Assembly: GCF_026210795.1 (NCBI RefSeq)
Contig: NC_089434.1
Location: 5,518,001-5,582,000 of the forward strand
Length of the DNA stretch: 64,000 nt
Reading direction: 5' to 3'
Origin: Rhizophagus irregularis
Lineage: Eukaryota; Glomeromycota; Glomeromycetes; Glomerales; Glomeraceae
Under the pieces are notes generated by a model. It was not told the DNA's origin. It made no database searches and was given only the letters and a program-made list of their open reading frames with translations. Positions 18,675 through 63,877 of the stretch are shown piece after piece. Position numbers and translations under genes: made by a program. The first letter of the stretch is position 1. Each line of letters opens with the position of its first letter.

Positions 18675-19829
18675 CTACTTGTTCTCTTTTAACTGATTTG
18701 TTAGATTGTTTATCACGTTTGTTTGATTATTTATCACTTTTGTTAGTTGTTTTATCTCTTCTGTTAGTGTTTCTATTTGCTGTTTTTTATCTTTAATACT
18801 TACTTCACCATTCAGATAAATGGAGATTAATGTATTGATGTTATCAGGTTTTTCATTAAAATGGTTAACTAATCTAGTAAAAGATAAAGTACAAATTCCA
18901 AAAGCTATTCTTGTGATAATAGGGCTGGTGCTAATTAAATATCCAGATACAATAGCTGGATAAACAATTAATAACATTATATTAATATGTTTAAAAAACT
19001 TAAAGATTGTAGGGAAATTAGTGATACGTTGAAATTCTCTTACGTAACGTATCAAAATACTTTCACGAAGTTTGCGAATGTGTAAAATTGTGATACAAGA
19101 CGCATGTAAAGTATAGACTACAATTCCAAAAATATAAATTATCCTATTTGCTAGCCTCAAACTGTTGCATTTGTTAATTCCAAAGTTTTTAATGCAATAA
19201 TTACTCATGTGACTATAAACCTTATTAGCATTATTATTGAGACCCAAATCACCATGGATAAAGGCGTCATACCCAGAATATGATAAAATAGTAAGCACTA
19301 AAATGAAGTAGCAAGCTAACATTTCACCTTCAAATATTTCATTTATAAATTTTATAAATCCTGTAAATAACTTTTTTATGCTTCCTCCTCCATTTATTTT
19401 TTTATTTTTGTTGTTTCCATTTTCATCATCCACATTTATACTTGTTTCACCATTTCCTCTCTCATCTATTTTTTTTCCTTCCACATTTTCATTGTTTTCT
19501 TCTTTAATCTTTTCTTTATCTTCTTTTTTGTATTGAACCCATAAGAAAAGGATGTATGAAATTATTCCAAAAAGTGCTGTAACGGCGTAATTTACAATAA
19601 CTTCTCTTTTGTAATAGTTACTATAATATTGATACCATTCAATTGCTGTAATTAAAGGAAATATAACAATAGATGCAAATATAAAGAAATCATCAAATAT
19701 ATTTATCATGGATAATTTCTTTCTTTTACCATCTTTAAAACCATTAAACAGACCAACTATCAATACTGGAAGTAATCCAATGAGAATTGAATTAATTGTA
19801 TCTTCAGCTGGATTATAAGATGGTGACAT
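18675..19829 (-). CDS. Multi-pass membrane protein, lineage-specific family, 384 aa (copy 1)
   Basis: Intronless. I do not recognise a named family. Visible order: N-terminal YNPAEDTINSIL leading into hydrophobic segment ~13-31; KLSMINIFDD then segments ~46-67 and ~78-100; a hydrophilic Asn/Glu/Lys loop (101-165) holding one acidic repeat unit; segment ~170-190; a loop with YCIKNFGINKCN (Cys212, Cys221), likely extracytoplasmic and possibly disulfide-bonded; segments ~226-247, 282-300 and 303-320; then VNHFNEKPDNINTLISIYLN and a C-terminal heptad-like coiled coil (~352-383). Paralogs lie at 36802 and 46711 in the opposite orientation, and their upstream DNA is also shared. Seven predicted membrane passes and an acidic cytoplasmic loop would fit a sensor or channel, but that is speculation. 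Confidence 0.85.
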   Translation of the reverse strand: MSPSYNPAEDTINSILIGLLPVLIVGLFNGFKDGKRKKLSMINIFDDFFIFASIVIFPLITAIEWYQYYSNYYKREVIVNYAVTALFGIISYILFLWVQYKKEDKEKIKEENNENVEGKKIDERGNGETSINVDDENGNNKNKKINGGGSIKKLFTGFIKFINEIFEGEMLACYFILVLTILSYSGYDAFIHGDLGLNNNANKVYSHMSNYCIKNFGINKCNSLRLANRIIYIFGIVVYTLHASCITILHIRKLRESILIRYVREFQRITNFPTIFKFFKHINIMLLIVYPAIVSGYLISTSPIITRIAFGICTLSFTRLVNHFNEKPDNINTLISIYLNGEVSIKDKKQQIETLTEEIKQLTKVINNQTNVINNLTNQLKENK

Positions 19830-20240
19830 TTTTGTAAATAATCACAAATTGGGATAAGTTTAAATAAATAAAAAAAAATTTTTTAGATTTTTTATCTTTT
19901 ATAATCTTTTTTTTTTTTGTTTGAAATTTGTTTTTTTACATAAAAATTAATTTTTCTCAAACATAATAAAATTTATCAAAAGCAAAGCCAGTGTGATAAA
20001 GTGACAAGCCGTTTTTCAAATAAAAAGATTATTAACTACTTTTTGCGCCAGGTCCTGATATATGGATCGACATAAATTTGCCTTTTTGCAAAATTACACG
20101 TTTTTCCTAAATTATATTTTTTATTTTATTTGTTTTTAAAAATTTAATGAGTTACATGAGTTACGAAATTATATAAAATTTAAACCATTTTTTTTTTAAA
20201 AAAAAAATGAAAAATTAGTCGGTAACGCCTATAAACTGTC
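19830..20240 (-). repeat. Upstream region shared with paralogous genes (inverted copy)
   Basis: Read on the minus strand, this contains GGCGTTACCGACTAATTTTT, AAATTTATGTCGATCC and AAAACAAATAAAATAAAAAA in the same order as 35690-35830 and 45890-46030. The duplicated unit therefore included the promoter as well as the gene. Confidence 0.75.
19897..19903 (-). promoter_or_regulatory. TATAAAA box of membrane-protein copy 1
   Basis: GATTATAAAAGAT on the minus strand lies about 70 bp before the start codon. The same word is found ~60-68 bp before the start codons of the two close paralogs, which supports it as the core promoter. Confidence 0.5.
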
Positions 20241-20986
20241 GAAAATATTCAGCCAAAAACTCAGTTCACATTAATCTACATCGTTTAAAATACGTCATTT
20301 TGTGATTTTTACTAATATTTTAACGCGAATATGATTTCTAGATACATAAACTTAATACGACAATCAATGTAATTACAGTATTTATAACAATAAGTCAATT
20401 ACTAACGTCAGTTACATTTGACAAAGAAATTTAACTCGAACTCGTAATATTATCTATTATCTCAACTTTCAGTAATAATATACTATATTTATTGTATATA
20501 ATATATAACATAAGCATTCTTTACTTGATGTAATCATTAAAGCTACTAACATTCGAGTTGTTGATTCAAAGTTGCTCATCTCATGCTTTGATATGGCGCA
20601 GTGTATAAAAACGTGGCAAAAAATATCTCGTAACATTTCTTTTAGCTTCGCCCTCGTTAATAAAACAAGATTATTGCGGCTCAAAAAAATTATTTGATAA
20701 CAAAATCTCTCATTTTCACATTATTTTTAAAGTGGCTCTGCTCTTCAATTGTAAATTTAATGAGGCGCAATACTATAGAAAAACGTGGCAAAAATACTTC
20801 CTTTACTTTGCCTTCATTGGTAATAATATGAAAAAAAAATGTAATCAAATACTACGTGTTACTATGGAAAAATTTTCTTGTATAAACACTTTGTAATTGA
20901 GGAGAGAAAATTTCTTATTGTTATAAAAACAAATTAACAAACAACAAATAAGAATTTTATATAAAATACTGAACACAAAATCAATC
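20241..20986. other. Upstream DNA of peptide locus, with a short duplication
   Basis: Two diverged copies of GGCGCA.T.TATA.AAAACGTGGCAAAAA followed by a CGCCCTCGTTAATAA-like block lie at about 20594-20665 and 20763-20830. TATAAAA at 20922-20928 lies ~60 bp before the ATG at 20987, the same spacing as in the membrane-protein genes. Confidence 0.45.
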
Positions 20987-22448: not shown

Positions 22449-22451
22449 TGT

Positions 22452-23215: not shown

Positions 23216-23289
23216 AACAAATGTAGGTTCCTTGGCGATCCCGGTGATTTTTCTTACTGGTATTTTTGCACTTTATGCCAGTAGATATT

Positions 23290-24770: not shown

Positions 24771-24779
24771 CTTTCTCTC

Positions 24780-26939: not shown

Positions 26940-28993
26940 TTACTTTACATATTGAATAATAGTCTTGAGGTTCTTTTTGTATTCCCACACAACATGATTT
27001 AAGATATCATGTTGCGGACTAATTCCTGTTAAGTGATCTGGTTGGGATTCTCCACATTTTAATTCACTTTCACCATCTTTTTTATGCAAGTAGTATATCT
27101 TCCCTGGAATATATAGTTTTCTGTTGGTGCCTTCCAATTCATTTTTATTCAGATTCTATCATAATATTAATATTTACAAAAAGATAATTAATTCATTAAT
27201 TATTTGAATTAATATTACAATTTAACATTACATACCATTTTAGATATCTCTCTTAAATTTTCAAAACTCATTCTTGTAATAATATCATTTTCATTCACAA
27301 AATTATTAATAAAATCCTTGGTTCTAGAAGTTAAAGAAAATGAACAACATGGTGGGGTTGCAAAATTCCATGCTTGGGTATCAAACTCATGTTTTTGTAA
27401 AAGTATAGCTACAATAGATGACACAGCTGCGCCTAAAGAATGCCCAGTCACTTTAACAGAATAATTATTATATTTTTTAATTTTATCACGTAACTCATTA
27501 AAAATAATGTTTGCACTTTGATGCATTCCACAATGATAATAGTCTTCGCAATTATAATCTACATTGTATGCTTTAAGATCGATCAATATATCAGAAATAC
27601 TCTACAAAAAATATTGTTAATTAATAGATAAATTTTTATATATGTGTTAGAATAGAAAAGAACTTGGTTAAATCTTACAAGGGTTCCGCGGATACATATG
27701 ATAATGGATTTTTTTGGTTTATCTTCAATTATCATGTATGCAGGTATATTCTTTCTATTTTTGGTATAACAAATGAGTTTTTTACTACGACGTTCAAGAG
27801 ATTTTTTAATTTTGTTTTCAGCAAGAAGTCCTAGCATTGAATATTTCTAATCGAATATTATGATAAACTTGTTAGTAAACAAAAATGGTTAGTGGTCAAT
27901 AAATTCAGATTATATACAAGAACATACGTATAATATATTTGAAAATTTTAAGTATTCTAGGGCATCCTTTATTTTATTCTCAATAAGAGGAGGATATGTA
28001 ATTGGATGATCACTAAATAAATAATAACATCAATTAACAAGACTTCCCATATTAATATGTAAATAAATAAAATAAAAAAAAATATTACAGGCGTTTTTGG
28101 GTATCACAACTCCTAGATCTAAGAAGCTTGCATATTTCCATAATCCCGCCATCAAAATCCTCAAGAAGGAGTTGGACATCCCTAACATTAGAATGTGGTT
28201 GTAATTGTGTTCTGGAGGTATGCATACTTATTTTAATACGACCAATAATTTCTTGTGATCCTTTAGCTTTAAGATCAATAACACTGTTGTCATTAATATA
28301 AAATTAGTATAAAAAATATTTTTTCACTTGAATGATGAAACGTGTAGTGTAGGGTGGAAGTGTTGTGTAGTGTATGGCGCCCCATGTGACATCATACATA
28401 GGTGATAAATAATATAAATCGGCCAAAATTATCATAACGCGGGCTGGGATATTATTTATCACCTGAGTATATTCCACACTCTTATACTTTACCGCGTTAC
28501 ACACAGCTAAATATCACCATACACTACACATGATTTCGTCTTACCGTTCAATTTTTTGGTCCGGTTCTAAAAAATTTAATCGAATGGAACCACATCCAAT
28601 TGCTTTCCCATGAAGGTGATGTTCTCCAACTAGTTTCTGAAATTTCTGAAATTTCTGAGATTTCTGAAATTTTGATCGGATGTCATCAAGAGTATTTTCA
28701 ATTAATAAGGGTTCGTAAACTCTAAATTTTAATTTACTATGATACAACCATTCATCAGGGATATTAAGATTCTCTATACTCCCTTTAGAAACATAGGTAC
28801 ACTTATTAACAAACTTAAGTTTAGTCCATTTAAGTGATTGAGAACAAGTTATCTGTTCAATACGGACGGTAACCGCTAAACCTAATTAAATGAATGTGTA
28901 ATTAATATAGGTCAATGCATAATTAGTTATTAATTGTTTACTTTTTAAACCATAAGAATAACAAACATATATGAAGCTACAGCAGTATACCAT
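26940..28993 (-). CDS. Class-3 (fungal lipase-like) alpha/beta hydrolase, seven exons, ~472 aa
   Basis: Exons (minus strand): 28993-28942, 28881-28545, 28283-28089, 28012-27928, 27846-27679, 27601-27236, 27155-26940. All junctions are GT-AG and in phase. The C-terminal half is a lipase_3 domain: IIICIRGTL (strand before the oxyanion region), SISDILIDLKAY, nucleophile elbow TGHSLGAAVSS (Ser ~334), NENDIITRMS (probable catalytic Asp ~385) and SPQHDILNHVVWEY (probable His ~455). This resembles diacylglycerol-lipase-type serine esterases acting on acylglycerols. The N-terminal half (GLAVTVRIEQITCSQ..., FRVYEPLLIENTLDDIR, ending KGSQEIIGRIKISMHT) may be a C2-like domain, as such lipases often carry. 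FQK repeats at 28641-28673 make a short Gln/Lys insert. The first exon is the least certain. The second intron is 261 bp because it contains a MITE; the others are 60-81 bp. Confidence 0.85.
28328..28546. mobile_element. MITE-like element inside lipase intron, supplying its 5' splice site
   Basis: The sequence is homologous to the complete element at 30919-31151: shared GAAA(A/C)-GTGTAG.GTAG left end, GTGACAT.ATAC.....GTGATAAATAA, GTTACACAC.GC.AAAT.TCACCATAC, and identical right end TTCGTCTTACCG. Internal inverted repeat AGGTGATAAATAATAT / ATATTATTTATCACCT. The minus-strand intron donor GGTAAGA (28545-28539) is the right terminus of the element. No clean target duplication remains. Confidence 0.65.
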
Positions 28994-31854: not shown

Positions 31855-33666
31855 AGTAAAATAATAATCTATTTTTTAATCATTGTATTCCATGGTACAT
31901 TATCTATAATCGGTTTATTAATACAACTTTAATATTTGTTTCATGCATATGTTTTAAATAATTATCCCTTTATTAATTTTCTTTCAACAAAAAGCCTTCT
32001 TTTATTTAATATATACTTAATCTGTATAATTATTGAACAAAAAAGAACTCATTATGTTGATTTTACGCCACTGACGCGCGATTTTTCTATTTGTTTAAAG
32101 TAGAAAATTTATTTTCGTGTTTACTTTTTTGAAAAAAGAAAAGGTATTACTCATACACATATCGGACGATAGAGGAATTCCCTAAAATTTTGGGGATATT
32201 TTTGTGATCAATTGTCAGCCAATAAATTAAACTACATTTATTATATATATACTCGCAAGAAACTCATCTGTTATAAACAAATGGGACAATGGGTTAGACG
32301 TGATTTATATATAATAATATACATAATAAAAAGAGGGTTAGACGCGATTCTATATAAGTAAAAGAATCAGATTACGTAATATTAATAGACAATTAAGGCC
32401 CAATTTCTCCAATCAGCCGATATGATAAACTCATCATTAATTCATCATCATTCATCATCATTAATTTATGATTGTTCTTCTTTCTATTAACAATCTCTTG
32501 ACTTTTGTTATATGTTTTCGTTACTGCGTAAGTTTCATAATATTATATAAAAGCAGCCATTTAATTCTCGAAAAAAATCTTTATAAGAATTTCATGAAAT
32601 GAAAAAATTCAATTATGCCCGGCCCGTTGTTAAAATTATATTTAAATTATGTTTAATATATACATAAAATTATGATTCATAAGCTTTTTCCTCCCATCAA
32701 AAAACCAAAAACACAAAAATAAAATAATAATAATAAAAATGACGAGAAAAGTTCGGCAGGTTAAACGAATGAATTAAATTATAATTCGTTTTTTTTTGTA
32801 CAAATAGAATTCCGTAAAACGATTAAGATTTTTACTGGGTTACAAAATTTTAATGGTTTTTTTTTCTATATCTCTCCACCTTATCTTCCTCCCTTTTCAT
32901 TTTATTTTCTTTTATATCTCGGAGTCTAATTCGTATTTACTATTTCCGATTGCCGTTGAAATTTCTGTTTTTTATCTTTTTGAACGTTATTTTTTTTTTA
33001 AAGTTATTTTTTAAAGTTATTTTTTGAACGTTATTTTTTTTGAATGAACGTTATTTTTTTTTCTTCTCTCGTTCTGCTTCTTTTTGTTTTGTTTTGTTTT
33101 TATTTTCATTTATTATTATCTTCATTTTATTAGTCTTTTATTTTTAATAAATTTATACTTATCGGGTTATTTCACGTGAAAATTCTTAAAAAAATTCAGG
33201 ATATTTTCCTGAGATTCTTTTTTCATAAATGTTTACAATGTTGCATAATTTTCTCAAGAATGTTTAAACTTTTTTGAATGATATTCTATTGACATCTATA
33301 AAAAGAAAATAATATAAATTTTCTACTTAAATCGTGACAGCAACAAATAAATCCTCAACATATAATCTCTACGTAATTGTCTTGATGAAATTGAACACGA
33401 ATCGCTTGCTTAACTAAAATTCTTTATTTATTCTTATAAAATATAGTTAAAAAATTCGATAAAATGTAATAAATAGATGATAAAATTTTTTCGTCTAAGT
33501 ATAGTTTATAATACTTCAATATCGGGCACTAGAATCTTTTTTTGTTAGTAATACGCGGCAAATTCAATGAAGTCTTACCGTAAAAAGCTCTGTCATGTGA
33601 TACCCAACAATTATTGTAATAATTTTTTTTCACGTGCCAATAAGTAATTGTTATCAGTCATGTTGT

Positions 33667-33860
33667 TAGGGATGGGATCAGTTCGTCGGCTCTATTTCGG
33701 TCATAATTTTGATGACAACCCGATTTGGATCGAACCGGTTCGGAGCCGGATCGATTTTTAGAACAACTTCCCAGAGTGTTTCAAGTTCAGAATCTGCTAA
33801 AATTAGAATCGGTTCCAGAACCGGTTTGGAACCGCTCTGTTTGGAACTTCCCCATCTCTA
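33667..33860. mobile_element. 194-bp hAT-type MITE
   Basis: Ends TAGGGATGGGA...GTTC-like and GAAC.TCCCCATCTCTA form an imperfect terminal inverted repeat. Flanked by perfect 8-bp direct repeats CATGTTGT (33659-33666 and 33861-33868), the hallmark of hAT insertion. Interior is enriched for GGTTC.GA.CCGG words. No coding capacity. Confidence 0.82.
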
Positions 33861-33894
33861 CATGTTGTAGTTAATAACTGATTTACCACTAGGA

Positions 33895-34273
33895 CAGAGA
33901 CCCGGGAAAATTCCATTTTTATAATAAATGAATAAATCGGAATTTTTGCTGTATTATGGAATAAACCGGAATTTTTATGATTTTTAACAATTTTATTCCG
34001 TCACGTGACAACTAGCCAATCATTATTGCATATTTTATTGACTATATCGTGATAGAATTTGTAAAAAAACTAGTAATTAGTAAATTGTTGATCATTTAAA
34101 TCGTTTTTGGCTAAAATTATTGTCGTGTCACTAGATCAACCTAAGTTGGCCTGCATTAAGATGTAAGCCGGCTAGAATTATCAAATATTTCTTACTATAA
34201 TTTTTTATCGGAATTTTTTCCGTTATCGTGATAAAAATTTGCGATTTAATATCGGAATAAATCCGGGTCTCTG
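33895..34273. mobile_element. 379-bp hAT-type MITE (CAGAGACCCGG ends)
   Basis: Begins CAGAGACCCGG and ends CCGGGTCTCTG (11-bp perfect inverted repeat), with CGGAATTTTT-type subterminal repeats in both orientations. Flanked by perfect 8-bp CACTAGGA (33887-33894 and 34274-34281). CAGAGACCC-like termini with 8-bp duplications are typical of hAT elements. Non-autonomous; no transposase frame. Confidence 0.88.
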
Positions 34274-34281
34274 CACTAGGA

Positions 34282-35816
34282 TTGCTATGTATATCATGTG
34301 GCCGAAGGCCACATGATAGAGTAGCATAGTGTAAATCAGTTATCGTAAATATGACTGATAATAAAGTTATTGGATATGTATGACGTAAGCAACTGAGACC
34401 TTTTTCGTGTATCTTATTTATTATTTTATAATAAAGTGATCAAGATTTTGTATATCGCTAATTATAAAGTGACCAAAATTTGTGTATCACTATTATAAAG
34501 TGATCAATAACATACGTGAAAAATGTCCAATGCTTACATAGAACATATACAATAATGTGTCTTATCTGTTATTTTAAAATCAAATTTGAATTTATAATAA
34601 TTAGGTACTTGTAATTACATATTCAATTATATATTTTATTTAATTATTAAATAAAATAAAATAATATTTGATATGAAAAAAAAAAAATAATAAAATATTT
34701 ATTTTTTTGGCTAATATAATTGCTTTATCATATAATAACCTAAAAAAATGGATTGAAAACCCAATAATCGAAAAATTAATTATATTAAAAATATTTTTCA
34801 AAAGAATTCATTACTGCATGCATTCGACCGGGTCGCATTATCACACTACAGATTATCAATTAAATAAAATGTTTAAACTCATAATAAATGATTCTGGATT
34901 ACCTGAAAATACTGAGAATAATATAGATAATATTAGCGTGACAAATAAAAAAAGAAAAAGATCCGTTAACAAATAAATTACGCGTTACCATGATGATCCT
35001 TCAAGTATAATACGATAAGCATTAATTTTTTAAAAAAAAATAGTATTGTTTTTTAATACTTAAAAAAAAATGTTTTTTGTACAATTAATTTATTACCAAA
35101 TGAAATTTTATTAGAAATATTAGAAAATTTAATAAATTATATATACAAGCTACAAATATGTTACGTCTTTAAAAATTGTGTGTAAACGCATGAATACAAT
35201 AAAATATTATAGGTTAAATCTAGAATTTAAGTATTTAACGAATTATCGTATGGTCACTATGGTTGAAACTTGAAAGTATAGCATTACACAATTATTACAA
35301 TTATTGAACGTATCATAAGAGATCTGATACAGTAATATAATAATTACAGAGTTAAGGAAATTTAAAAATGCAAATATTAACGTTAGTGTCTATTTTATAA
35401 ATAAATAAATTACTGCATTCTTATTACCTTCAAACTTAGTATTATTATTTCATTTATTTTAAAAAACAAATTACTTGAAAAAATTTTTTGCGAGTGCCAT
35501 TAATGAGAGTTCATCCGATCATATTGCACTATTTTCAAAAGCTAATCATATCAGATATATATTAGAATTTTTTTGATATTGTTTCTAAATAGTTGAATTG
35601 TCGGTTAAAATTTGTATCTGTCTTGAATGGGCCTAGAGTGTCTGTAGGAATTTGCATAATTTTTGAATATTTGCGACAGTTTATAAATGGCGTTACCGAC
35701 TAATTTTTCTTATTTTTTTTTTTAAAAAAATGGTTTAAATATTATATAATTTCGTATTAACTCATTAACTTTTAAAAACAAAATAAAATAAAAAAATGAA
35801 TTTCATTTTCAAATTT
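34282..35816. other. Non-coding part of copy A
   Basis: An 89-codon frame at 34707-34976 (with NNIDNISVTNKKRKRSVNK at its end) is interrupted by deletions in copy B (44990-45190), so it is not under constraint and I do not call it a gene. The rest is AT-rich and conserved with copy B only through duplication. Confidence 0.5.
34292..34318. repeat. Perfect 12-bp stem hairpin with GAA loop
   Basis: TATCATGTGGCC-GAA-GGCCACATGATA, 18 bp after the hAT target duplication. It could be a terminator-like or structural element, or a scar. A comparable hairpin is at 48534-48558. Confidence 0.6.
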
Positions 35817-36680
35817 ATGTCGATCCGTTTATCATGTGGACTGTGGACTTGCGGAACCTGGTGACGCAAACTAGATTAAGAAGTAGAGTACTTTGTAATC
35901 TTTTACTATCTATATTTTTTTTAAACAAAAGAAACCGGCTTGTCATTTTATCGCCTGATTCCCATATCAATCAATCATTTGCATTTATTATGTTTGATAT
36001 AAATGGTGCACTTTATTATATAATTTCGTACTTTCAAATTTATGTCGATCCGTTTATCATGTGAACTGTGGACCTGCGGAACTGAGTACGGTTAGCTAAA
36101 CTGTACTGTACGAAGTGAGAACTCACCAATCAGATTTTATTGTACGATAAATAAAAAAAATTTAAAAGTATACAATGAGTTATGATTGGCTAAAATATTT
36201 TCGTACAGTACAGTTTGACCGTACAATACAGTTTATCTATTTACCTTGCGGTACCTAGTGGCGCAAACTAGATTAAGAAGTAGAGTACTTTGTAATCTTT
36301 TACTATATATATTTTTTTTTAAACAAAAGAAACCGGCTTGTCATTTTGTCGCCTGATTCCCATATCAATCAATCATTTGCATTTTATTATGTTTGATATA
36401 AATGGTGCATTTTATTATATAATTTCGTACTAACTCTTTAACTTTTAAAAACAAAATAAAATAAAAAAATGAATTTCATTTTCAAATTTATGTCGATCCA
36501 TTTATCATGTGGACTGTGGACTAGTGGCGCAAACTAGATTAAGAAGTAGAGTACTTTGTAATCTTTTACTATCTATATTTTTTTTAAACAAAAGAAATCG
36601 GCTTGTCATTTTATCGCCTGATTCCCATATCAATCAATCATTTGCATTTTATTATGTTTGATATAAATGGGAAAAATTAA
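35817..36680 (+). repeat. Three tandem copies of the upstream region of the 492-aa gene
   Basis: A unit beginning AAATTTATGTCGATCC.TTTA followed by TCATGTG(A/G)ACTG, then GCGCAAACTAGATTAAGAAG, ending at TGATATAAATGG, occurs at about 35813, 36038 and 36486. Copy B has a single version. The middle unit is split by the inverted-repeat element at 36086. The array may multiply promoter-proximal sequence. Confidence 0.8.
36086..36224. mobile_element. 139-bp inverted-repeat element
   Basis: Left end GTACGGTTAGC-TAAACTGTA followed by CTGTACGAA; right end TTCGTACAGTACAGTTTGAC followed by CGTAC. The arms pair over ~25 bp with a small indel. It interrupts the second upstream-repeat unit, which dates it after the triplication. 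The target duplication is unclear. Confidence 0.6.
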
Positions 36681-36733
36681 TTTTATGTAAAACAACAAAT
36701 AACACGAGAAATTTCAAACAAAAAAAAAAAAAT

Positions 36734-36740
36734 TATAAAA
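36734..36740 (+). promoter_or_regulatory. TATAAAA box of membrane-protein copy 2
   Basis: TTATAAAAGATAG lies ~65 bp upstream of ATG 36802, matching position and context in the other two close paralogs. Confidence 0.5.
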
Positions 36741-36801
36741 GATAGAAAATCTAAAAAATTTTTTTTATTCAAACTATCTCAATTCGTGATTATGTACAAA
36801 A

Positions 36802-38280
36802 ATGTCATCATCTAATTCATCTTATAATCCAGCTGAAGAAACAATTAATTCAATTCTCACTGGATTACTTCCAGTATTGATAGTTGGTCTGTTTAATGGT
36901 TTTGAAGATGGTAAAAAAAAGAAATTATCTGTGATAAATATATTTGATGATTTTGTTATATTTGCATCTATTGTCATATATCCTTTAATTACAGCAATTG
37001 AGTGGTATCAATATTATAGCAACTATTACAAAAAAACAGTTATTATAAATTACACCTTTATAGCATTTTTTGGAATAATTTCATATATCTATTTCTTATT
37101 GGTTCAATACATAAATGAAGAGAATGAAAAGAATGAAGAAGAAAACAATGAAAATGTAAGCTCGGTTGAAGAAGAAAAAAAAATTGATAAGAGAGGAAGT
37201 AATGAAATAAGTATAAATGTGGATAATGAAAATGGAAACAACAAAAATGGAGAGAATGAAAAGAATGAAGAAGAAAACAATGAAAATGTACTAAGCTTGG
37301 TTGAAGAAGAAAAAAAAATTGATAAGAGAGGAAGTGATGAAATAAATATAAATGTGGATAATGAAAATGGAAACAACAAAAATGAAGAGAATGAAAAGAA
37401 TGAAGAAGAAAACAATGAAAATGTAAGCTCGGTTGAGGAAGAAATAAAAATTGATGAGATAGGAAGTGATGAAATAAGTAAAAATGTGGATAATGAAAAT
37501 GGAAACAACAAAAATGAAGAGAATGATGAAAAAATAAATGGGAGAGAAATAATCAAAATAATCATAAAAGCGTTATTTGAAAGATCTATAAATGAAATAC
37601 AATTGTTAGCTTGCTACTTCATTTTTGTGCTTACTATTTCAACATATTTTGGGTATGATGCCTTTATCCATGGTGATCATGATCTCTCGTTTGGTTTTAA
37701 TAACCCTAACAAGGTTTATAATCACATGAGTAGTTATTGCATTGAAAACTTTGGAGTTAACAAATGCAACAGTTTGAGGCTAACAAATATAATAATATAC
37801 TTTGCTGGAATTGTATTTTATGTTTTACATGGGCTTTATATCTCAATTTTACGCATTCGCAAACTTCGTGAAGGCAAATTGGGACGTTACTTAGAAAACT
37901 TTAAACATATCGATCAATTCACTACAATCTTAAATGTTTTTAAACATATCAATATAGTGTTATTAATTGTTTATCCAGCTATTGTATCTGGATATTTAAT
38001 TAGCACCAGTCCTATTACCACAAAAATAGCTTTTGGAATTTGTACTTTATCTTTTACTAGATTAGTTGACCATTTTAATGAAAACCCTGATAAAATCAAT
38101 ACATTAATCTCCATTTATCTGAATGGCGAAGGAAATAGTAAAGATAAAGAGCAAATAGATAAACTAACAGAAGAGATAGAAAAACTAACAAATAAGATAA
38201 ACAATCAAACAAACGTGATATATAATCTAAGAAATGAGATAAAAGAGAATAAGCTGAACAAAGTGGAAAACGTGAATTAA
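36802..38280 (+). CDS. Multi-pass membrane protein, lineage-specific family, 492 aa (copy 2, triplicated loop)
   Basis: Intronless paralog of the 384-aa protein. Membrane-like segments at ~17-33, 50-68, 79-102, 267-286, 328-350, 380-400 and 403-420. The first cytoplasm-like loop is expanded by three in-frame tandem units (residues ~107-239; DNA 37120-37251, 37252-37386, 37387-37518; 44, 45 and 44 codons), each running ENEKNEEENNENV..., a KID-containing acidic stretch, then a Ser-rich bit and VDNENGNNKN. Between segments 4 and 5 is YCIENFGVNKCN (Cys313 and Cys322). The end carries TTKIAFGICTLSFTRLVDHF and a coiled coil (IDKLTEEIEKLTNKINNQ). Start chosen at the ATG aligning with the paralogs plus an extra Ser-rich tetrapeptide. 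Function unknown. The minus-strand frame at 37104-37565 is a shadow of the repeat. Confidence 0.88.
   Translation: MSSSNSSYNPAEETINSILTGLLPVLIVGLFNGFEDGKKKKLSVINIFDDFVIFASIVIYPLITAIEWYQYYSNYYKKTVIINYTFIAFFGIISYIYFLLVQYINEENEKNEEENNENVSSVEEEKKIDKRGSNEISINVDNENGNNKNGENEKNEEENNENVLSLVEEEKKIDKRGSDEININVDNENGNNKNEENEKNEEENNENVSSVEEEIKIDEIGSDEISKNVDNENGNNKNEENDEKINGREIIKIIIKALFERSINEIQLLACYFIFVLTISTYFGYDAFIHGDHDLSFGFNNPNKVYNHMSSYCIENFGVNKCNSLRLTNIIIYFAGIVFYVLHGLYISILRIRKLREGKLGRYLENFKHIDQFTTILNVFKHINIVLLIVYPAIVSGYLISTSPITTKIAFGICTLSFTRLVDHFNENPDKINTLISIYLNGEGNSKDKEQIDKLTEEIEKLTNKINNQTNVIYNLRNEIKENKLNKVENVN
37120..37518 (+). repeat. In-gene tandem repeat, 132/135/132 bp
   Basis: Three consecutive codon-preserving units; a partial fourth (GAGAATGATGAAAAA) joins the rest of the gene. 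Identity between units is high (mostly substitutions), so expansion is recent. The other two close paralogs have a single unit. Confidence 0.92.
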
Positions 38281-38545
38281 GAAATGAAAAAAATTGAAAT
38301 AGGAACTAAAAAAGAACAAAGGAGCGAAAAAAAATATATTGAATGTGGTATTTAGTTTTTTTCAGGAAATATAGAGGTATAAAATGGTAGCTAGTTAAAT
38401 ATATAATTCTGTAAAAATTTATGTCATTTATAAATATTACATGTATATATATCATATATTTTATCTTCAATTAAATATTGTAAGATTTATTATCACATTA
38501 ATAAACAAAGTGTTAAAGTTAACTTTCTTTTAATGGCTCGCATAT

Positions 38546-39670
38546 GCGTTATTATTATTTGGATGAAGTTTATATTGTGTAGTACATAAAAAATTTATCA
38601 TGTGATCAATATGTAATTTTATTGGCGGGTAAGTTTATCACGTGACTGAGAACTTAAATAAATTCTTTAATTACTCTCCCTTAAAAGTCAACTAATCAGA
38701 TGTCACGATTTTATATATAACCTTTTTTTATTAATAAACAATAAACAATAAACTCCGGGTCCCTGGTCAATTTTAAATTTCAATGTTATGTGAACCGAAA
38801 AATTGAATTTGTGTTGTGAAACTGTTTGCGATTAGTGAAATGTTTCGCCTATTTTGAGTTTCAGTTTTGGCTATTCCGAAACTGTCAAAACCTGGTGAAA
38901 TGTCTGAAACCTAGCAAAACTTCCGAAACTCAGCGAAACTAAAATTGTCATGCATGTCATAATTGGTTGTTAAATAAGTTTCATATCCAAAATCCAGTTG
39001 TAGATTACACGCCCGTTCATTCAATTTACATTAAATTTTAAATTTCAAAATCGCAATCTAAATTCTTTTTATCATTCGTGTTTTCATATTTATTTATTTT
39101 ATTCGCTTTAGTTGGAATATTAAATAAATTATATATATATATACTATATACTAGCCGTTGAACCCGTCAACCCGTTGCTCCGCCGCAACGTCAGATAAAC
39201 ATACACGTGATCGGTACGACGGTTAAATGTTATACGCGATTTTATACAGTCTTTCGGGTGCACAGGTATAAATTCGTAGTCTAAACATTACGGATACACA
39301 GGTATAAATTGTAGTCTAAACGTTACAGGAACACAGATATAAATATGTAATCTAAACGTGACTGTCACACAGGAAAACAATTATTATATAGTAGATTTTT
39401 ACCATATTTACAATATCCAATCATATTCCGATTATGACGAAATTTTTTAAATGGAAGTTGATATTTGGTAGCAAGTGTCAAAAATGAGAACTTGTACAAA
39501 ATCCTACCTTACATCTAAAATAATTTAAATGAGAAATGAGATCTTGGAATCATATGATTATACCTTATAGCCAATTAAAAGTTAAACATTTAACACGTGA
39601 CTTTTTTAGGTTTCAGAGTTTCGCCAGTTTCGGAATTTTGCACAATTGGCAAAACCAGTTTCGCCTCACA
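38546..39670. other. Intergenic with a short ~43-bp tandem repeat
   Basis: At about 39258-39375 three units share CACAGGTATAAAT...GTAGTCTAAACRTTAC. Just before, at 39160-39195, is ACTAGCCGTTGAACCCGTCA followed by ACCCGTTGCTCCGCCGCAACG, a G/C-rich motif that looks like a transposon end but has no partner in view. No coding region. Confidence 0.5.
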
Positions 39671-42248: not shown

Positions 42249-44176
42249 AATTATTCATTAACTACAAGGAAATAATTTTAAATTATATCGCATAATTTGA
42301 ATATAAAATATTAAATTCGCGGCATTTATTATTAAATTTATATAGTTCAGCATTTAATTATATAATATAGTTAATATTATACAGTATTTATTTATTTTGG
42401 TTATTTAGGACTAGATTAACTGTAATTTAAATTTAATAAATAAAGGATAAATGCTATAAATTGATTAATAAATTTTTACAAGAATCCCGTGAAATTTAAT
42501 TGTTATAAATTTAATAAATGCCACGAATTTAGTTCAATAAAGCCACAAATTAAAGCCACAGATTTAATCAAATAAATCATGAATTTAATCAAATAAAAGC
42601 CACATATTTAAGTAAAAAATACACTAATTTAATTAAATAATGCCACATTTGAATTTAATAATTGCCACGAATTTAATTAAATAAATGTTACATATTAAAT
42701 TAATTAAATGCCATATATTAAATTAAATGAATGCCACGAATTTTATTTAATAAAAATGATCTATAGTAAAAAAAAATTTTGTTAATTTTATCCGGGTTTC
42801 GGTTTCTATCCGGATATATCCGGATTTTTATCCGAGTCGGATAATCCGGATAGAAACCGGATATTTTTTTTAATTTATCCGGATGACGGTTTCTGCCCGG
42901 ATCGAAACACTACACCTACCCACCCCACTGCCCTGTTAAAGGTTGGAACAAATGTAGGCCACCAAATATGATAAATTGACTATTATTGATAAGATTTTTT
43001 TAAAGTGAAATAAATAATAATCCTTTTTTTAATCATTGTATTCCATGGTACATTATCTATAACAAAAAAGTAAAACAAGTAGTATTAATAAACCGATTAT
43101 TCTTCGTGGAACTTTAGTATTTGTTTCATGCATATTTTATTAATTTTCTTTCAACAAAAAGCCTTCTTTTAATATATACTTAATCTGTATAATTATTGAA
43201 CAAAAAGAAATCATTATGTTGATTTTACGCCACTGACGCGCGATTTCTCTATTTATTTTAAGTAGAAAATTTATTTTCGTGTTTACTTACTTTTTTGAAA
43301 AAAGAAAAGGTATTATTCATACGTAAACTCAAATACATCATCATTAATTTATGCACGCCAAGAAACGCGTTTGTTCTTCTTTCTACTAACAATCCCTTGG
43401 CTTTTGTTATATATGTATTCCCTCCCCTTACTCGTTTCATACAACTTTTCGTTACTGCGCAAGTTTCATGATATTATATAAAAGCAGCCAATTAAGTCTC
43501 GAAAAAAATCTTTATAAGAATTTCATGAAATGAAAAAATTCAATTATGCCCAGTCCGTTGTTAAAATTATGTTTAAATTATGTTTAATATATACATAAAA
43601 TTATGATTCATAAGCTTTTTCCCCCATCAAAAAACCAAAAAAACACAAAAAAAAAATAAAAAAAAAATAAATAAATAAAAAAATGATGAGGAGAGTTCGG
43701 TAGGTTAAACGAATGAATTAAATTATAATTCGTTAAAAAATATCATTGTACAAATAGAATTTCGTAAACGATTTAAGATTTTTTTACTGGGTTACAAAAT
43801 TTTAATGTTTTTTTTTCTATATATCTACACCTTACCTTCCTTTTCGTTTTCGTTTTATTTTCTTTTATATCTCGGAGATTCTAAATTCGTATTTACTATT
43901 CCCGATTGCCGTTGAAATTTCTTTTTTATCTTTTTGAACGTTATTTTTTTTTTCTTCTCTTGTTTCTGCTTCTTTTTGTTTTGTTTTTTTTATTTTCATT
44001 ATTATTATCTTCATTTTATTAGTCTTTTATTTTTAATAAATTTATACTTATTGGGTTATTTCACATGAAAATTCTTAAAAAAATTCAGGATATTTTCCTG
44101 AATCCTGAGATTCTTTTTTCATAAATGTTTACATTGTTGCTTAATTTTCTCAAGAATGTTTAAACTTTTTTGAATG

Positions 44177-44496
44177 AGTGCTTCGATCCGTGTACGGATT
44201 GATCCGGATTGATCCGGATGAAATCAAAAATCCGGATGAAATCCGCGGTTTGAACCGGATTTCGTCGGATCCATCCGGATTGCCAGTTTTCGGATAACTT
44301 AAAATATTTCTGAAACCAATGATCAGAATTTAACAATTTAAGGCATGTTTGATAGTGCTTGACGTTGCGCATTTAATGGTAGGACTGGATTTTTTGAAAT
44401 AATTTTTTTTTATCCGGATTTTCGTTTAATAACAATTTTCATCCGGATTAAATGTTATTCAATCCGGATGACGGATTTCATCCGGATCGAAGCACT
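44177..44496. mobile_element. 320-bp hAT-related MITE
   Basis: Terminal inverted repeat AGTGCTTCGATCCG / CGGATCGAAGCACT (14 bp, perfect), differing by one base from the 2.5-kb element's terminus, with the same ATCCGGATGACGG subterminal motif and many ATCCGGAT words. It is absent from the equivalent place in copy A (33270-33330). No 8-bp duplication is visible; flanking sequence appears partly deleted. The 70-codon minus-strand frame inside is a by-product. Confidence 0.78.
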
Positions 44497-46060
44497 ATTT
44501 TCTACTTAAATCGTGCAAATCCTCAACATATAATCTCTACGTAATTGTCTTGATGAAATTGAACACGAATCGCTTGCTTAACTAAAATTCTTTATTTATT
44601 CTTATAAAATATAATTAAAAAATTCGATAAAATGTAATAAATAGATAATAAAAATTTTCGTCCACTTTATCTAAGTATAGTTTATAATGCTTCAATATCG
44701 GGCACTAGAATCTTTTTTTTTTGTTAGTAATACGCGGCAAATGAATAAACAATAGTTTAGTTCAGTGCATGTTCATGCAAGACTTACCGTAAAAAGCTCT
44801 GTCACGTGATATCCAACAATAAATTTTTTTCGCGTGCCAATAATGTGCAATCTTGAAAAATCAAATTTGAATTTATAATAATTAGTACTTGTAATTACAT
44901 ATTCAATTATATATTTTATTTAATTATTAAATAAAATAAAATAATATTTGATATGAAAAAAAAATAATAAAATATTTATTTTTCTGGTTAATATAATTGC
45001 TTTATCATATAATAACCTAAAAAAAAAATGGATTGAAAAATTAATTATATTAAAAATATTTGCCAAAGAATTTATTACTGCATGCATTCAATAAAATGTT
45101 TAAACTCATAATAAATGACTGAAAATACTGAGAATAATATAGATAATATTAGCGTTGCGTTACAAATAGAAAAGATCCGCTAACAAATAAATTACGCGTT
45201 TACCATGATGATCCTTCAAGTATAATACGATAAGCATTGATTTTTTTTTAAAAAAAATAGTATTGTTTTTTTTAATACTTAAATAAAAATGTTTTTTGTA
45301 CAATTAATTTATTACCAAATGAAATTTTATAGAAAATTTAATAAATTATATATATAAGCTACAAATATGTTACGTCTTTAAAAATTGTGTGTAAACGCTG
45401 GAACACACTTATACGGCGATGAATACAATAAAATATTATATAGGTTAAATCTAGAATTTAAGTATTTAACGAATTATCGTATGGTCACTATGGTCGAAAG
45501 TATAGCATTACACAATTATTACAATTATTGAACGTATCATAAGAGATCTGATACAGTAATATAATAATTACAGAGTTAAGGAAAATTTAAAAATGCAGAT
45601 ATTTTAACGTTAGAGTCTATTTAAAGATTTATTTTATAAATAAATAAATTACTGCATTCTTACCTTCAAACTTAGTATTATTATTTCATTTATTTTAAAA
45701 AACAAATTACTCAAAAAAAATTTTTGCGAGTGCCATTAATGAGAGTTCATCCGATCATATTGCACTATTTTCAAAAGCTAATCATATATATTAGAAACTT
45801 TTTTTGATATTGTTTCTAAATAGTTGAATTGTCGGTTAAAATTTGTATCTGTCTTGAATGGACCTAGAGTGTCTGCGACAGTTTATAAATGGCGTTACCG
45901 ACTAATTTTTCTTCTTTTTTTTTTTAATTAAATATATTAAATATTATATAATTTCGTACTAACTCATTAAATTTTTAAAAACAAAATAAAATAAAAAAAA
46001 TGAATTTCATTTTTCAAATTTATGTCGATCCGTTTATCATGTGGACTTGTGGGTCTGCTG

Positions 46061-46389
46061 ATTTACCCCAGTAACGCCACAAAAAATTTCCACACATTGA
46101 AAAAATCTCAAAATGGAAAACAGGAAAGGTGTGACGCCGGTGACATTTTGTGGCGATACTGAGGAAGATTACTCCAACACTTTTCTGCCCCCACGTGATC
46201 ATAGTAAAAATATTTGTCACCCTCCGCGTTTCCCTTTTTTCATAAGTATTCTGGGGACTTGGATTTTTTTCGAGGTATGAAAAATTATTTATCACATCAT
46301 TATTAATCACATGGTTAATTTCTTAATTCCGTAATGCCGGCCAAAAAGTCACGTGGGGGCAGAAAAGTGACGGTGATACTGGGGTAAAT
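46061..46389. mobile_element. ~330-bp MITE, same family as 22234-22448
   Basis: Ends ATTTACCCCAGTAACGCCAC and GTGATACTGGGGTAAAT share the TTACCCCAGTAAC.CCAC terminus and the CCCACGTGA / TCACGTGGG inner inverted repeat with the 22-kb element. TCTGCTG occurs on both sides (46054-46060, 46392-46398), offset by a few bases, as a probable target duplication. Inserted in copy B only. Confidence 0.75.
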
Positions 46390-46650
46390 GATCTGCTGCA
46401 AAAAGTAACGAAACAATGAAACCTGCAAAAAATTAGTGGCGCAAACTAGATTAAGAAATCGAGTACTTTATTTGTAATCTTTTACTATCTATATTTCTTT
46501 AAACAAAGAACATTGACTTTGACTGATTCACATATCAACCATTTGCATTGATATAAATGGAAAAATTAATGTTATGTATGTTATGTAAAACAACAAATAA
46601 CACGAGAAATTTCAAAAAAAAAAAAAAAAAAAATTATAAAAGATAAAAAT

Positions 46651-46657
46651 TATAAAA
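46651..46657 (+). promoter_or_regulatory. TATAAAA box of membrane-protein copy 3
   Basis: TATAAAAGAT is present twice (46635 and 46651); the second is 60 bp before ATG 46711, as in the paralogs. Confidence 0.5.
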
Positions 46658-46710
46658 GATAAAAAAATCTAAAAAAAATATTTTTTCTCAATTCGTGAAT
46701 TATTTACAAA

Positions 46711-47943
46711 ATGTCATCATCTTATAATCCAGCTGAAGAAACAATTAATTCAATTCTCACTGGATTACTTCCAGTATTGATAGTTGGTCTGTTTAATGGT
46801 TTTGAAGATGGTAAAAGAATGAAATTATCCGTGATAAATATATTTGATGATTTTGTTATATTTGCATCTATTGTCATATATCCTATAATTACAGCAATTG
46901 ATTGGTATCAATATTATAGCAGCTATTACAAAAAAACAGTTATTGCATATTACACTGTTATAGCAATTCTTGGAATAATTTCATACATCCGTTTCTTACG
47001 GGTTCAATACATAAATGAAGTTAAAGAAAACGAAAACAATAAAAATGTAAGCTTGGATGAAGAAGAAACAGAAATAGATGAGAGAGGAAATGGTGAAACA
47101 AGTATAAATATGGATAATGTCAACACAAATAAAGAGAATGATGAAAAAATAAATGGGAGAGTAATTTACAAAATTATAAAAAAGTTATTTAAAAAATCTA
47201 CAGGTGAAATATTTAAAGGTGAAATGTTAGCTTGCTACTTCATTTTCGTACTTACTTTTTCATCATATATTGGGTATGACGCCTTTATCAGTGGTGATCT
47301 TGATGCTCCCAACTTAAGTTTGAATAACGTTACTTTTAGTACCGATAATTTTAATAACGCTAAAAATAACGTTAACAAGGCTTTTAGTCACATGAGTAGT
47401 TATTGCATTGAAAACTTTGGAGTTAAAAAATGCAACAATTTGAGGCTAACAAATATGATAATATATTTTTCTGGAATTGTATTCTATGGTTTACATGGGT
47501 TTTATATCACAATTTTACGCATTCACAAACTTCGCAAAGGTAATTTGGGACGTTATTTAGGAGATTTTAAACATATTATCGATCATTTCAAAACAATCTT
47601 TAAGTTTTTTAAACATATCAATATAGTGTTATTAATTGTTTATCCAGCTATTGTATCTGGATATTTAATTAGCACCGATCCTATTACCACAAAAATAGCT
47701 TTTGGAATTTGTACTTTAGCTTTTACTAGATTAGTTGACCATTTTAATGAAAAACCTGATAAAATCAATACATTAATCTCCATTTATCTGAATGGCGAAG
47801 AAAATAGTAAAGATAAAGAGCAAATAGATAAACTAACAGAAGAGATAGAAAAGCTAACAAAAAAGATAAACAATCAAACAAACGTGATAAATAATCTAAG
47901 AAAAGAGATAAAAGAAAACAAGCTGAACAGAGCGGAAACGTGA
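46711..47943 (+). CDS. Multi-pass membrane protein, lineage-specific family, 410 aa (copy 3)
   Basis: Intronless and close to the 492-aa copy. The order of hydrophobic segments is the same; the acidic loop has one, shortened repeat unit (ENENNKNVSLDEEETEIDE). The loop between membrane segments 4 and 5 is longer than in the paralogs, with an Asn-rich insert that includes NLS and NVT, possible N-glycosylation sites, which supports an extracytoplasmic position. The Cys pair is YCIENFGVKKCN (Cys232, Cys241). The C-terminal signature TTKIAFGICTLAFTRLVDHF and the coiled coil are kept. Duplicated together with ~4 kb of upstream DNA. All reading-frame-changing indels between copies avoid the gene, which suggests it is functional. 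Role unknown. Confidence 0.88.
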   Translation: MSSSYNPAEETINSILTGLLPVLIVGLFNGFEDGKRMKLSVINIFDDFVIFASIVIYPIITAIDWYQYYSSYYKKTVIAYYTVIAILGIISYIRFLRVQYINEVKENENNKNVSLDEEETEIDERGNGETSINMDNVNTNKENDEKINGRVIYKIIKKLFKKSTGEIFKGEMLACYFIFVLTFSSYIGYDAFISGDLDAPNLSLNNVTFSTDNFNNAKNNVNKAFSHMSSYCIENFGVKKCNNLRLTNMIIYFSGIVFYGLHGFYITILRIHKLRKGNLGRYLGDFKHIIDHFKTIFKFFKHINIVLLIVYPAIVSGYLISTDPITTKIAFGICTLAFTRLVDHFNEKPDKINTLISIYLNGEENSKDKEQIDKLTEEIEKLTKKINNQTNVINNLRKEIKENKLNRAET

Positions 47944-48200
47944 ATTAAGAAATGAAAAAAATTGAAATAGGAATATGAAAGAACTAAAAAAACAAAAAAA
48001 ATATATTGAACAGTCTTTTAATTAGGTATTCAGTTTTTTCAGGAAATATAGAGGTGTAAAAATTTATGTTATTGTATAAATGTATAAATATTACCTGATA
48101 TATATATTTTATCTTCAATTAAATAAACATTTTATTATCACATTAATAAACAAAGTGTTAAAGTTAACTTTCTTTTAATGGCTCGCATATGCGTTATTAT

Positions 48201-49080
48201 TTGGATGATGTTCTTGAACATTGTAGAATATTGTTCCTGCTGAATCGAATAATGATGATACCATTGACCGATAAAAAGCTAAAATAGGAGGATCTGTAAA
48301 GGACCCCGAAGCCCGAGCTATACGCATCAGGAAATTTTAGAAGTGTTGATTCATACCAGTATATGCGTTAATTAATATCATCTAGTTGTTTAACACGATT
48401 TGTAATGTTCATTAACACCTGTATATTACAGAAGCATCCTATTAAAAAAATTTTAAAAAAAGAAAATTTTCGAATTTCGGGGAAAAGATATATTTTATAT
48501 ATCACGTGTATCACGTGATACTGAATTAATAATTACCGCAGCTGCTTCAGCTGCGGTATAACGAAAAAAAAAATTAATTCATGATACATGAGTCAACTAC
48601 AAAAAATTTATATTCAATTTTGGTGCAAATTTTTGTCGAACATTAATCAATTTTTAGTAGAACCCAGTTTTCCATCCTAGAGTAACCATGTTTAACATTT
48701 AACATGTTTAATTAAAAAATCTTCATTTATAAAATTTGTAATAATAAAAAATAATAAATTAAATTCTTTATTAAATTTCTAATTTACTAAATGTATTACT
48801 TGTCCCACATACACCTATAGATTACCTTCATACATAAAACGAAATTGTATTAGGCTATAAAAATTTTTTCACTTCATTTCTTGTAATAAGATCAAATATT
48901 TCATCAACTATAACGCTTCATGGATATTGGACATGCTCAGAGCCCGCATTGTGAGCATGGCGGCAAGCCATTTATGATATAGAAAAAAGCAATTAGAAAG
49001 AAGTAATTCGATTGCTTTTTCTTTAAATCCATGAATATTTGATTGAATTTCCATTGACATTTCTCCCAGGTTGTAAGTTC
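48201..49080. other. Intergenic with a palindromic hairpin
   Basis: TACCGCAGCTG-CTT-CAGCTGCGGTA at 48534-48558 is a perfect 11-bp stem with a 3-nt loop. The 48880-49080 stretch may be the decayed 3' end of the kinase pseudogene on the minus strand; AAAGCAATT / AATTGCTTT inverted words lie at about 48986-49020. No intact gene. Confidence 0.45.
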
Positions 49081-62254: not shown

Positions 62255-62962
62255 TGTGAAAATTTATGAAGGGAATTGTTCAATGTTATGTGACAAATGA
62301 AAAGACTTGCTTTATTAATATACTATACATGCTTATTTTTTCTTTATCTTTTCTACACGGCGTTTCTTATTTGCGGTTCCTCACTATCCTTTAACAAGCA
62401 TAACCCCTAAAATCATCTTCACGTTCTTGTACAAGTGTGTTGGGATAAAAATTTATTTCCGAGAAAGTAGTGATCGTTAATACGTTTTTATATCGCACAG
62501 AAATTGCATCATTTCACGTGACCCGCTTTCTCGACTCTCCTACCTCTCGAACAGGAAATTTGCAATTATTTATTCTTTTACGATAGTATTCGATCAAGAA
62601 AGGAAATTGGAAGATTCAGTATAGCAACCCGATGAAAAAGAAACGATCAGAAGAGCCACATTTCCCGTGATCTCAGATCCTTCGTGAAAGAATGCGGACA
62701 TGCAAATCAATTAAAGAATTGGAATTTGACTAAGAAAAGAGTTATAAACAAGATATATAAATGTATGTATACCGATACAGTGTATTTCTGCAAATTCAAC
62801 CATTTTAACTTACATAATTATTAGATTATTCGAATGAGATATGAGATTTGTAAAATCATCCAAACTTAAAAAGTTATTTATTTGTTGTACTGACTGCCAT
62901 TGTGTAGCTACAATTTTTAATAGAAAAGAACATGTACAGTACGCTATCTCTTTTGAATAAAG
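62255..62962. other. Upstream region of the 304-aa gene
   Basis: More GC-balanced than the AT-rich block before it. TATATAAATG at 62754 is TATA-like but ~200 bp from the start; no ~60-bp TATAAAA as in the paralogs is seen. Confidence 0.4.
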
Positions 62963-63877
62963 ATGAAAAAGTCATACTTGTTATTGTGTCTTTTACTCAT
63001 AACCAATTTTTCAATAACGGTTTACGCACAGCAAGTAGAATTATATGATGCCACCAGCGATGCCATCGATTTTTTCATCACGGTCATGGTCCCACTGTTG
63101 GCAATATCACTCTTTGAAACAAAGAGACGAACAAAAAGAAATATATTCACTTTTCTCGACGATTTCATAATCTATTCCAGCTTCCTCATACCCGTCATAT
63201 ATTTCTATTTCTACAGTATCAGGACCGGTACAACCCACACACTGAATTTTGCAGTAGCTTGTGCCCTATTTTTTGCTCTTATTTTGATACTGTTTGAATT
63301 CTTACTTTTCATGAGGGAAGATTATTTTAGAAGATACAAGAGATTTTGTAGTATAATCTATGCATTCATTCTTTCTGTAAATGTATTTGAGCTAGGAATT
63401 ATTTTTAAGACCAACACAGTAGTGAAAAAATTAGATCCTTATGTTATGACTGCCATTTGTGATGGAGGTCGTGTCAGATGTAATCTTGCTACTGCTTTGC
63501 TCATAATAGCCGTCATTTCTTCGCTTCTACTTTTGCTTCTGCCAATATCCAAAGCGATCGGGCGTTGCTACCTCACTTCATTCTATGTAAAACTTTCTTC
63601 AACTTTATGTCATGCAGTGATAATAAGCATGGTAACACTAGTGACGGGGTGGACACTAAGTAATAGTGAATATGTGACGAAGATTGTATTGGCTATTGGT
63701 ACATTATCTATCACACGAATTATTAATCGTTTCAGGGATTTTGATACTAGCAAAGTAATAAACGTCCAAGGACAAGAAGAAATACCCAAAAGAATTTTGT
63801 TGTCGCATTTTTTGTTCGATTTTGATGACTTATCTAATGGGATCAAAGAAACAAAAGAACTCAAGCAAACGGTTTAA
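62963..63877 (+). CDS. Signal-peptide multi-pass membrane protein, divergent member of the same family, 304 aa
   Basis: Intronless. Residues 1-22 form a signal peptide (MKKSYLLLCLLLITNF..., cleavage near YAQQ). Hydrophobic segments lie at ~35-52, 66-84, 95-117, 129-148, 176-196, 214-232 and 239-255. Family links to the three long paralogs: YDATSDAIDFFIT versus YNPAEETINSILT; KRNIFTFLDDFIIYSS versus LSVINIFDDFVIFAS; a loop AICDGGRVRCN (Cys166, Cys173) versus YCIENFGVNKCN; and TKIVLAIGTLSITRIINRF versus TKIAFGICTLSFTRLVDHF. It lacks the acidic repeat loop and the C-terminal coiled coil. The signal peptide puts the N terminus of the core outside the cytoplasm, a useful topology marker for the family. 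Codon use and sequence are less AT-rich than in the other three. Function unknown. Confidence 0.88.
   Translation: MKKSYLLLCLLLITNFSITVYAQQVELYDATSDAIDFFITVMVPLLAISLFETKRRTKRNIFTFLDDFIIYSSFLIPVIYFYFYSIRTGTTHTLNFAVACALFFALILILFEFLLFMREDYFRRYKRFCSIIYAFILSVNVFELGIIFKTNTVVKKLDPYVMTAICDGGRVRCNLATALLIIAVISSLLLLLLPISKAIGRCYLTSFYVKLSSTLCHAVIISMVTLVTGWTLSNSEYVTKIVLAIGTLSITRIINRFRDFDTSKVINVQGQEEIPKRILLSHFLFDFDDLSNGIKETKELKQTV

Follow-up and report, generated by a model that had tools for sequence, protein, structure and literature searches.

The means by which arbuscular mycorrhizal fungi detect plant signals and one another at their cell surface are largely open. A review goes no further than to state that these fungi 'may' sense plant signals through G-protein-coupled receptors (GPCRs; PMC8401276). 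Here we analysed a 64,000-nucleotide (nt) stretch of the genome of Rhizophagus irregularis (C6:5518001-5582000; the window), in which four related genes (copies 1–4, encoding P0001–P0004) belong to a large, expanding family of small membrane proteins, predicted to have seven helices, an outer N-terminus and a cytosolic C-terminus. These proteins are best read as a receptor-like seven-helix family under birth-and-death evolution; in a symbiotic fungus they form a candidate, rather than a demonstrated, receptor family. We tentatively favour a function as surface receptor or sensor, at a little under even chances, on the strength of the predicted topology, the absence of an enzyme or transporter match, a conserved structural framework combined with variable outer and inner loops, and the local birth-and-death evolution.

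Among described proteins, rhodopsin-like seven-helix proteins (GPCR classes A/D and microbial rhodopsins) resemble the family in predicted helix count and orientation, and resemble some of its members in an outer loop with cysteines between transmembrane helices (TM) 4 and 5. They differ from it in sequence, where no match was obtained, and no fold match rose above the background set by helical bundles. Where members of the family have a cysteine pair, its two residues lie within or next to a single loop; in class A GPCRs the bridge runs from TM3 to the TM4-TM5 loop. The fungal Pth11-like rhodopsin domain (PF20684) has, like the window family, two adjacent Asp residues (DD) where TM2 begins. 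PF20684, with its 27-bit cut-off, was absent from the Pfam matches of P0001–P0004 to E 10; a genome-wide search for it gave no match, but its controls gave no match either.

By sequence, part of the family already has a Pfam name, DUF6720 (PF20480), to which no function is assigned. P0012, P0013 and P0014 match DUF6720 over nearly the whole length of the model, at 231.9, 483.8 and 517.1 bits, respectively (E 1.5e-68 to 2.3e-155; curated cut-off 27 bits). P0006 matches it weakly (E 0.013), five of 18 members list it at E ≤10, and it was found in none of P0001–P0004 in a Pfam scan to E 10. In P0012–P0014, as in the window genes, the start is Y-D-P, TM2 carries DD and TM7 holds the K...R block, and like copy 4 they have a signal-peptide-like start; unlike the window genes, they have no matching cysteine pair and no coiled-coil-like tail. 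Signal peptides and coiled coils were judged by eye, here and in all window proteins and relatives. A first-pass annotation, made from the DNA letters, had called the family undescribed, which applies to the window copies, as these have no Pfam match above cut-off, but not to the three distant members that are DUF6720. No paper on DUF6720 by name was found in the literature searched, and searches, among them on GPCRs in Rhizophagus or Glomeromycotina, with subscription papers mostly outside their scope, returned no title or abstract start describing this family.

Each of the four window genes is an open frame. Copy 1 (P0001, 384 amino acids (aa); 18675..19829, minus strand), copy 2 (P0002, 492 aa; 36802..38280, plus strand) and copy 3 (P0003, 410 aa; 46711..47943, plus strand) are single open frames with seven predicted TM, N-terminus out and C-terminus in, and copy 1 has a coiled-coil-like tail. 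The divergent copy 4 (P0004, 304 aa; 62963..63877, plus strand) has a signal-peptide-like first helix followed by seven predicted TM. The frames agree with the first-pass annotation, as does its view of copies 1–3 as close duplicates (73% and 72% identity to copy 1 for copies 2 and 3, respectively). Its motifs were also recovered (Y(N/D)(P/A), DDF, C-x8-C-N in three copies and C-x6-C-N in the fourth, and a T(K/R)I...TL(S/A).TR block), so that the overall signature stands with corrections in detail: P0001 has TRI rather than TKI, and DDFFI, and P0003 has TLA rather than TLS.

Copy 4 had been described as a divergent relative of the other three, and comparisons at two levels agree. BLASTP aligned it with copy 3 over 66 residues at 30% identity (E 3e-7), with a second link at E 2e-6, and it aligns again in the last two helices. 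With hhalign, a profile of copies 1–3 plus P0005 scored 61.9 against copy 4. This score exceeds the best of 90 reversed-sequence decoys (28.2). Copy 4 is a genuine, if distant, relative of copies 1–3, and the motifs common to the four window genes reflect homology and not chance.

The family extends well beyond the window. Searching the genome (146,748,485 bases in 32 contigs) with ten members as protein queries, we found at least 23 open-frame members: P0001–P0018, those encoded in L023-L026, and P0019 in its N-terminal part. The first-pass count of four members is therefore superseded. Member counts are lower bounds, as the genome search scores best candidates only, and P0007 is incomplete, being cut at the end of the retrieved stretch while its frame runs on (429 codons). 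Many relatives are broken or split (for example, L001, L004, L005, L016-L020 and L028-L031, some of which may hold introns). Since a broken copy (C6:5513603-5514744) adjoins the left side of the window at a distance of 3–4 kb, four close copies lie within about 52 kb. A second cluster, of the P0018 subfamily, occupies C2:1584847-1705228, where several members have long tails of repeated MQTKIDEMQ-like units, and C25:854358-913141 holds P0007 and three more matches with internal stops over about 60 kb. Outside this genome, two collections other than fungal genomes were covered, viral_contigs with P0003 as query (12 pattern matches) and genome_contigs with A5 (65); neither yielded a confirmed relative.

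When ten subfamily profiles were compared by hhalign, 25 of the 45 pairs beat the best decoy of 28.2 and 20 fell below it, and each group had at least one link above the decoys. Against P0012–P0014, copy 4 scored 47.2 and the profile of copies 1–3 plus P0005 scored 38.0, each link spanning only about 60 N-terminal columns. Taken one by one, the weakest groups were P0007, P0016 and the P0018 group. A profile of 11 sequences scored 41.6 against P0007 (decoy 13.9), 67.8 against P0016 (decoy 12.7) and 76.3 against the P0018 group (decoy 20.7). Rebuilt from six sequences, the P0018 group reached 17.5 against the P0008-P0010 group, under its own decoy of 17.8, and 14.0 against P0016, under a decoy of 19.4. 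Because every subfamily has a link above decoys and the 11-sequence profile ties in the weakest groups, we regard the window genes and DUF6720 as branches of a single superfamily, as far as sequence profiles can tell.

Topology was predicted with a home-made hydropathy and charge program, after signal-peptide-like N-termini had been trimmed by hand. With trimming, 21 of 23 members had seven TM, N-terminus outside and C-terminus inside, and the other two had eight helices; without it, seven helices with the N-terminus out were called in 11 of 18 proteins, eight in six (the start being counted as a helix) and nine in P0014. Hydropathy alone gave seven helices in 19/23. Reversed sequences, run as a control, were called N-in and C-out in 21/23; the orientation call therefore follows the charges. 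Consistent with this orientation, K+R were higher in inside-type loops by count in all 23 members and by density in 21 (not P0016 and P0018). Some members begin with a signal-peptide-like helix and others at a would-be mature N-terminus, and both kinds of start fit an outer N-terminus. The earlier claim that these are membrane proteins is thus borne out by prediction, and the predicted seven-helix design with an outer N-terminus is new information on the family.

The most conserved residues across the 23 members are Y (20/23) and D (20/23) before or at the start of TM1, two D (21/23 each) at the inner end of TM2, and, on TM7, K at the outer end and R at the inner end (21/23 each). In copy 3, the DD pair (residues 46–47; 46846..46851, plus strand) is at the predicted cytosolic end of TM2, and K328 and R340 fall in a block conserved between copies that spans TM6, extracellular loop 3 and TM7 (residues 303–342; 47617..47736, plus strand). 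P0007 is without DD, K and R together. We propose that two charge clamps tie TM7 to TM1 and TM2: on the outer side, D at TM1 would pair with K on TM7, and on the inner side DD on TM2 would pair with R on TM7. Helices 3–5, the outer TM4-TM5 loop, the inner loops and the tail vary and would provide specificity. A cue would then be bound by the outer loop and the helix bundle, and the inner loops and coiled-coil-like tail would relay the signal or pair subunits.

The predicted outer TM4-TM5 loop holds a cysteine pair in all window copies: C212/C221 in copy 1 (19143..19283, minus strand), C313/C322 in copy 2 (37651..37788, plus strand), C232/C241 in copy 3 (47275..47457, plus strand) and C166/C173 in copy 4 (63407..63484, plus strand). 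As first annotated, one copy has N-glycosylation sequons in this loop (copy 3; N201 and N206). A conserved cysteine pair had been put forward as a signature; it does lie in a predicted outside loop in the window copies, but it is no hallmark of the family, as a comparable pair in or beside the TM4-TM5 loop was seen in 8 of 18 members (P0001–P0006, P0010 and P0016), a count read by hand from cysteine positions, with the topology program misplacing a helix in P0005. The 'acidic loop' of the close copies likewise exists, but is rich in Asn, Glu and Lys and not simply acidic, with acidic versus basic residues at positions 101–170 numbering 16 versus 14 in P0001, 16 versus 12 in P0003 and 23 versus 7 in P0002.

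Local expansion with variable loops, part of the same annotation, was confirmed. The segment holding copy 2 (31859..38570, plus strand) matches that holding copy 3 (43012..48212, plus strand) in blocks of 77–94% identity, about three tandem units of 132–135 nt in copy 2 (37109..37526, plus strand) enlarge its predicted cytosolic TM3-TM4 loop, and the copies vary among themselves. The sensor or self/non-self function that this annotation drew from such variation stays putative. The proteins could also reside in the membrane of an internal compartment (endoplasmic reticulum, Golgi or vacuole) and serve as scaffolds or in lipid handling, with the coiled-coil-like tail holding complexes. The short N-terminal tails without an outer domain, and the coiled-coil-like tails seen in several members, would suit this location; expansion with variable outer loops is, as a matter of general knowledge, unusual for housekeeping proteins of such compartments, and we consider this explanation quite improbable.

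Several points limit or weigh against the receptor reading, and the topology program behind it is home-made, with N-termini trimmed by hand. No GPCR family was found by Pfam in P0001–P0004 (to E 10) or in P0005–P0018 (to E 1). AlphaFold2 models speak for the seven-helix count, with seven long helices and one more long C-terminal helix in P0005, and seven long helices after the first helix and one more long C-terminal helix in P0004, but confidence is low in both (predicted local distance difference test (pLDDT) 62.7 and predicted TM-score (pTM) 0.58 for P0005; pLDDT 59.4 and pTM 0.49 for P0004). Fold searches with these models, by VIA and Foldseek for P0005 and by VIA only for P0004, gave no match above the helical-bundle background. 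For P0005, the best Foldseek E value was 0.27, and GPCR and rhodopsin matches in VIA (Z 6.3–7.6) ranked below mostly soluble helix bundles at 8.6–11.1, with adiponectin receptors, a possible fold, among the matches at Z 6.8. For P0004, duodenal cytochrome b led at 8.6, with Ste2 at 6.5. A sequence profile search of the PDB to E 10 returned no chain named GPCR; a chain named Rhodopsin (6kfq) appeared at 3.4 and a bacteriorhodopsin at 4.6. Its top matches, TMH4C4 (E 0.0077), VMA21 (0.027), FLVCR1 (0.055) and GABA-A receptor subunits (from 0.058; profile positions 22–102), were read as membrane-helix noise. Obligate charge pairing also meets exceptions: P0011, with E-F in place of DD, retains both K and R, and P0016, which has S at the R position, retains DD.

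Given the strong conservation of the helix charges and a fold that is still unsettled, the main rival is a seven-helix transporter or channel, in which the charges of TM1, TM2 and TM7 would serve coupling or selectivity and the variable parts would tune regulation. The near-invariant residues D, DD, K and R, which lie on helices or next to them, would suit a transporter as well as a receptor. The top fold match of the P0004 model, duodenal cytochrome b, is an electron carrier. P0019, a relative of P0018 (C15:4750802-4752589, minus strand; L027:203-1990 (-)), continues in one frame from its seven-helix part into a Ca2+-ATPase of the plasma-membrane type, a hint of ion handling. However, no transporter or channel family reached the Pfam cut-off in P0001–P0018, and loop variation with local duplication is generally more usual in surface recognition proteins. 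We place a transporter or channel on the unlikely side of possible. The individual Pfam candidates among the four window copies (nucleoside transporter, ZIP, CorA and coiled-coil families) were rejected, as all were below cut-off and the matches to the membrane part disagreed between copies.

Sequence evolution of the close copies adds further points against the receptor reading, and one in its favour. Among copies 1–3, the ratio of nonsynonymous to synonymous substitution rates (dN/dS) was 1.04–1.06 by a counting method and 0.96–1.33 by two other methods, with no measurable purifying selection, and a neutral simulation (60 runs; median 0.81, 5–95% range 0.51–1.50) included the observed values. 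Positive selection was not significant in the variable part (amino-acid-changing fraction 0.857, null mean 0.829; P 0.19), changing-to-silent codon ratios showed no difference between the conserved and the variable blocks (Fisher P 0.48), and the synonymous rate (dS) was lower in the conserved blocks (0.07–0.09 versus 0.16–0.19, in pairs giving a value). Over 376 codons aligned in the three copies, varying sites at codon positions 1, 2 and 3 numbered 73, 66 and 61; there is therefore no third-position excess. Coding substitutions between copies 2 and 3 (9.7%) were inside the mixed range of their flanks (2.8–17.7%), a comparison that leaves out the flank at 39666-40370. In favour of a conserved framework, amino-acid variation among the three copies affected 14 of 103 codons in TM1, TM2, TM6, TM7 and the tail and 114 of 273 elsewhere (Fisher P 1e-7, for a partition into conserved and variable parts drawn after the regional counts were known). 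As the conserved blocks show less synonymous change too, gene conversion may account for some of their low variation.

These values could mean functionless drift, the window copies being recent segmental duplicates on their way to becoming pseudogenes. Such drift would accord with dN/dS in all three pairs, with the duplication of the flanks along with the genes and with the many broken relatives, among them the one just left of the window. It does not account well for the reading frames. Given the lineage-specific substitutions observed, the neutral simulation expected 7.8 stop codons and none was seen, and none of 2,000 replicates had all three frames open. Gaps in the coding sequence were multiples of three in 17 of 19 cases (three alignments), the other two, of 2 and 43 nt, summing to 45, whereas only 12 of 47 gaps in the flanks were multiples of three (seven alignments); the copy pairs share lineages, so that these gap counts are not independent. 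The conserved residues also persist in very distant members, and dN/dS was below 1 in other pairs (P0008-P0009, 0.44–0.67; P0013-P0014, 0.64–0.66; P0003-P0005, 0.47–0.73). The dN/dS near 1 that the first-pass annotation had named as evidence against its own proposal was thus found in the three copies, but open frames and frame-keeping indels oppose neutral decay. We regard drift as very unlikely, and a fair reading is that the genes are kept open while most of their sequence is free, or pushed, to change.

With a surface receptor or sensor as the favoured function, a wider proposal can be framed: a new seven-helix receptor class found only in arbuscular mycorrhizal fungi, unrelated in sequence to known GPCRs, with two TM7 charge clamps, locally duplicated for host or partner cues, and with one member fused to a plasma-membrane Ca2+ pump for direct calcium coupling. 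We rate this combination as unlikely. P0019, within L032 (C15:4746200-4753200), is a possible fusion gene by its sequence, and may just as well represent two genes that happen to read as one; open frames downstream of it hold the catalytic and C-terminal domains of the ATPase. If P0019 is transcribed as one mRNA, the family would be tied to calcium. The at least 23 predicted seven-helix proteins, three of them known only as a Pfam DUF, amount to a concrete list of candidate sensors, with defined residues for mutation and a recent cluster in which diversification between strains can be measured.

Elsewhere in the window (1-64000), no tRNA was found with bacterial settings, and no Rfam family matched at its gathering score. 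Direct copies about 775–906 nt apart, up to three in number and 64–95% alike, occupy 5552-7898, with no long open frame. At 49496-49765 (minus strand) lies a fragment resembling a protein kinase, which scores below the Pfam cut-off and may be a remnant or a single exon. At 16468-18198 (plus strand), an F-box domain above the Pfam cut-off (16468-16794) is followed by a 288-aa frame without a Pfam match (17332-18198), the two probably forming one gene. Positions 27218-27586 (minus strand) hold a piece of a class 3 lipase gene, above the Pfam cut-off and with a GHSLG motif.

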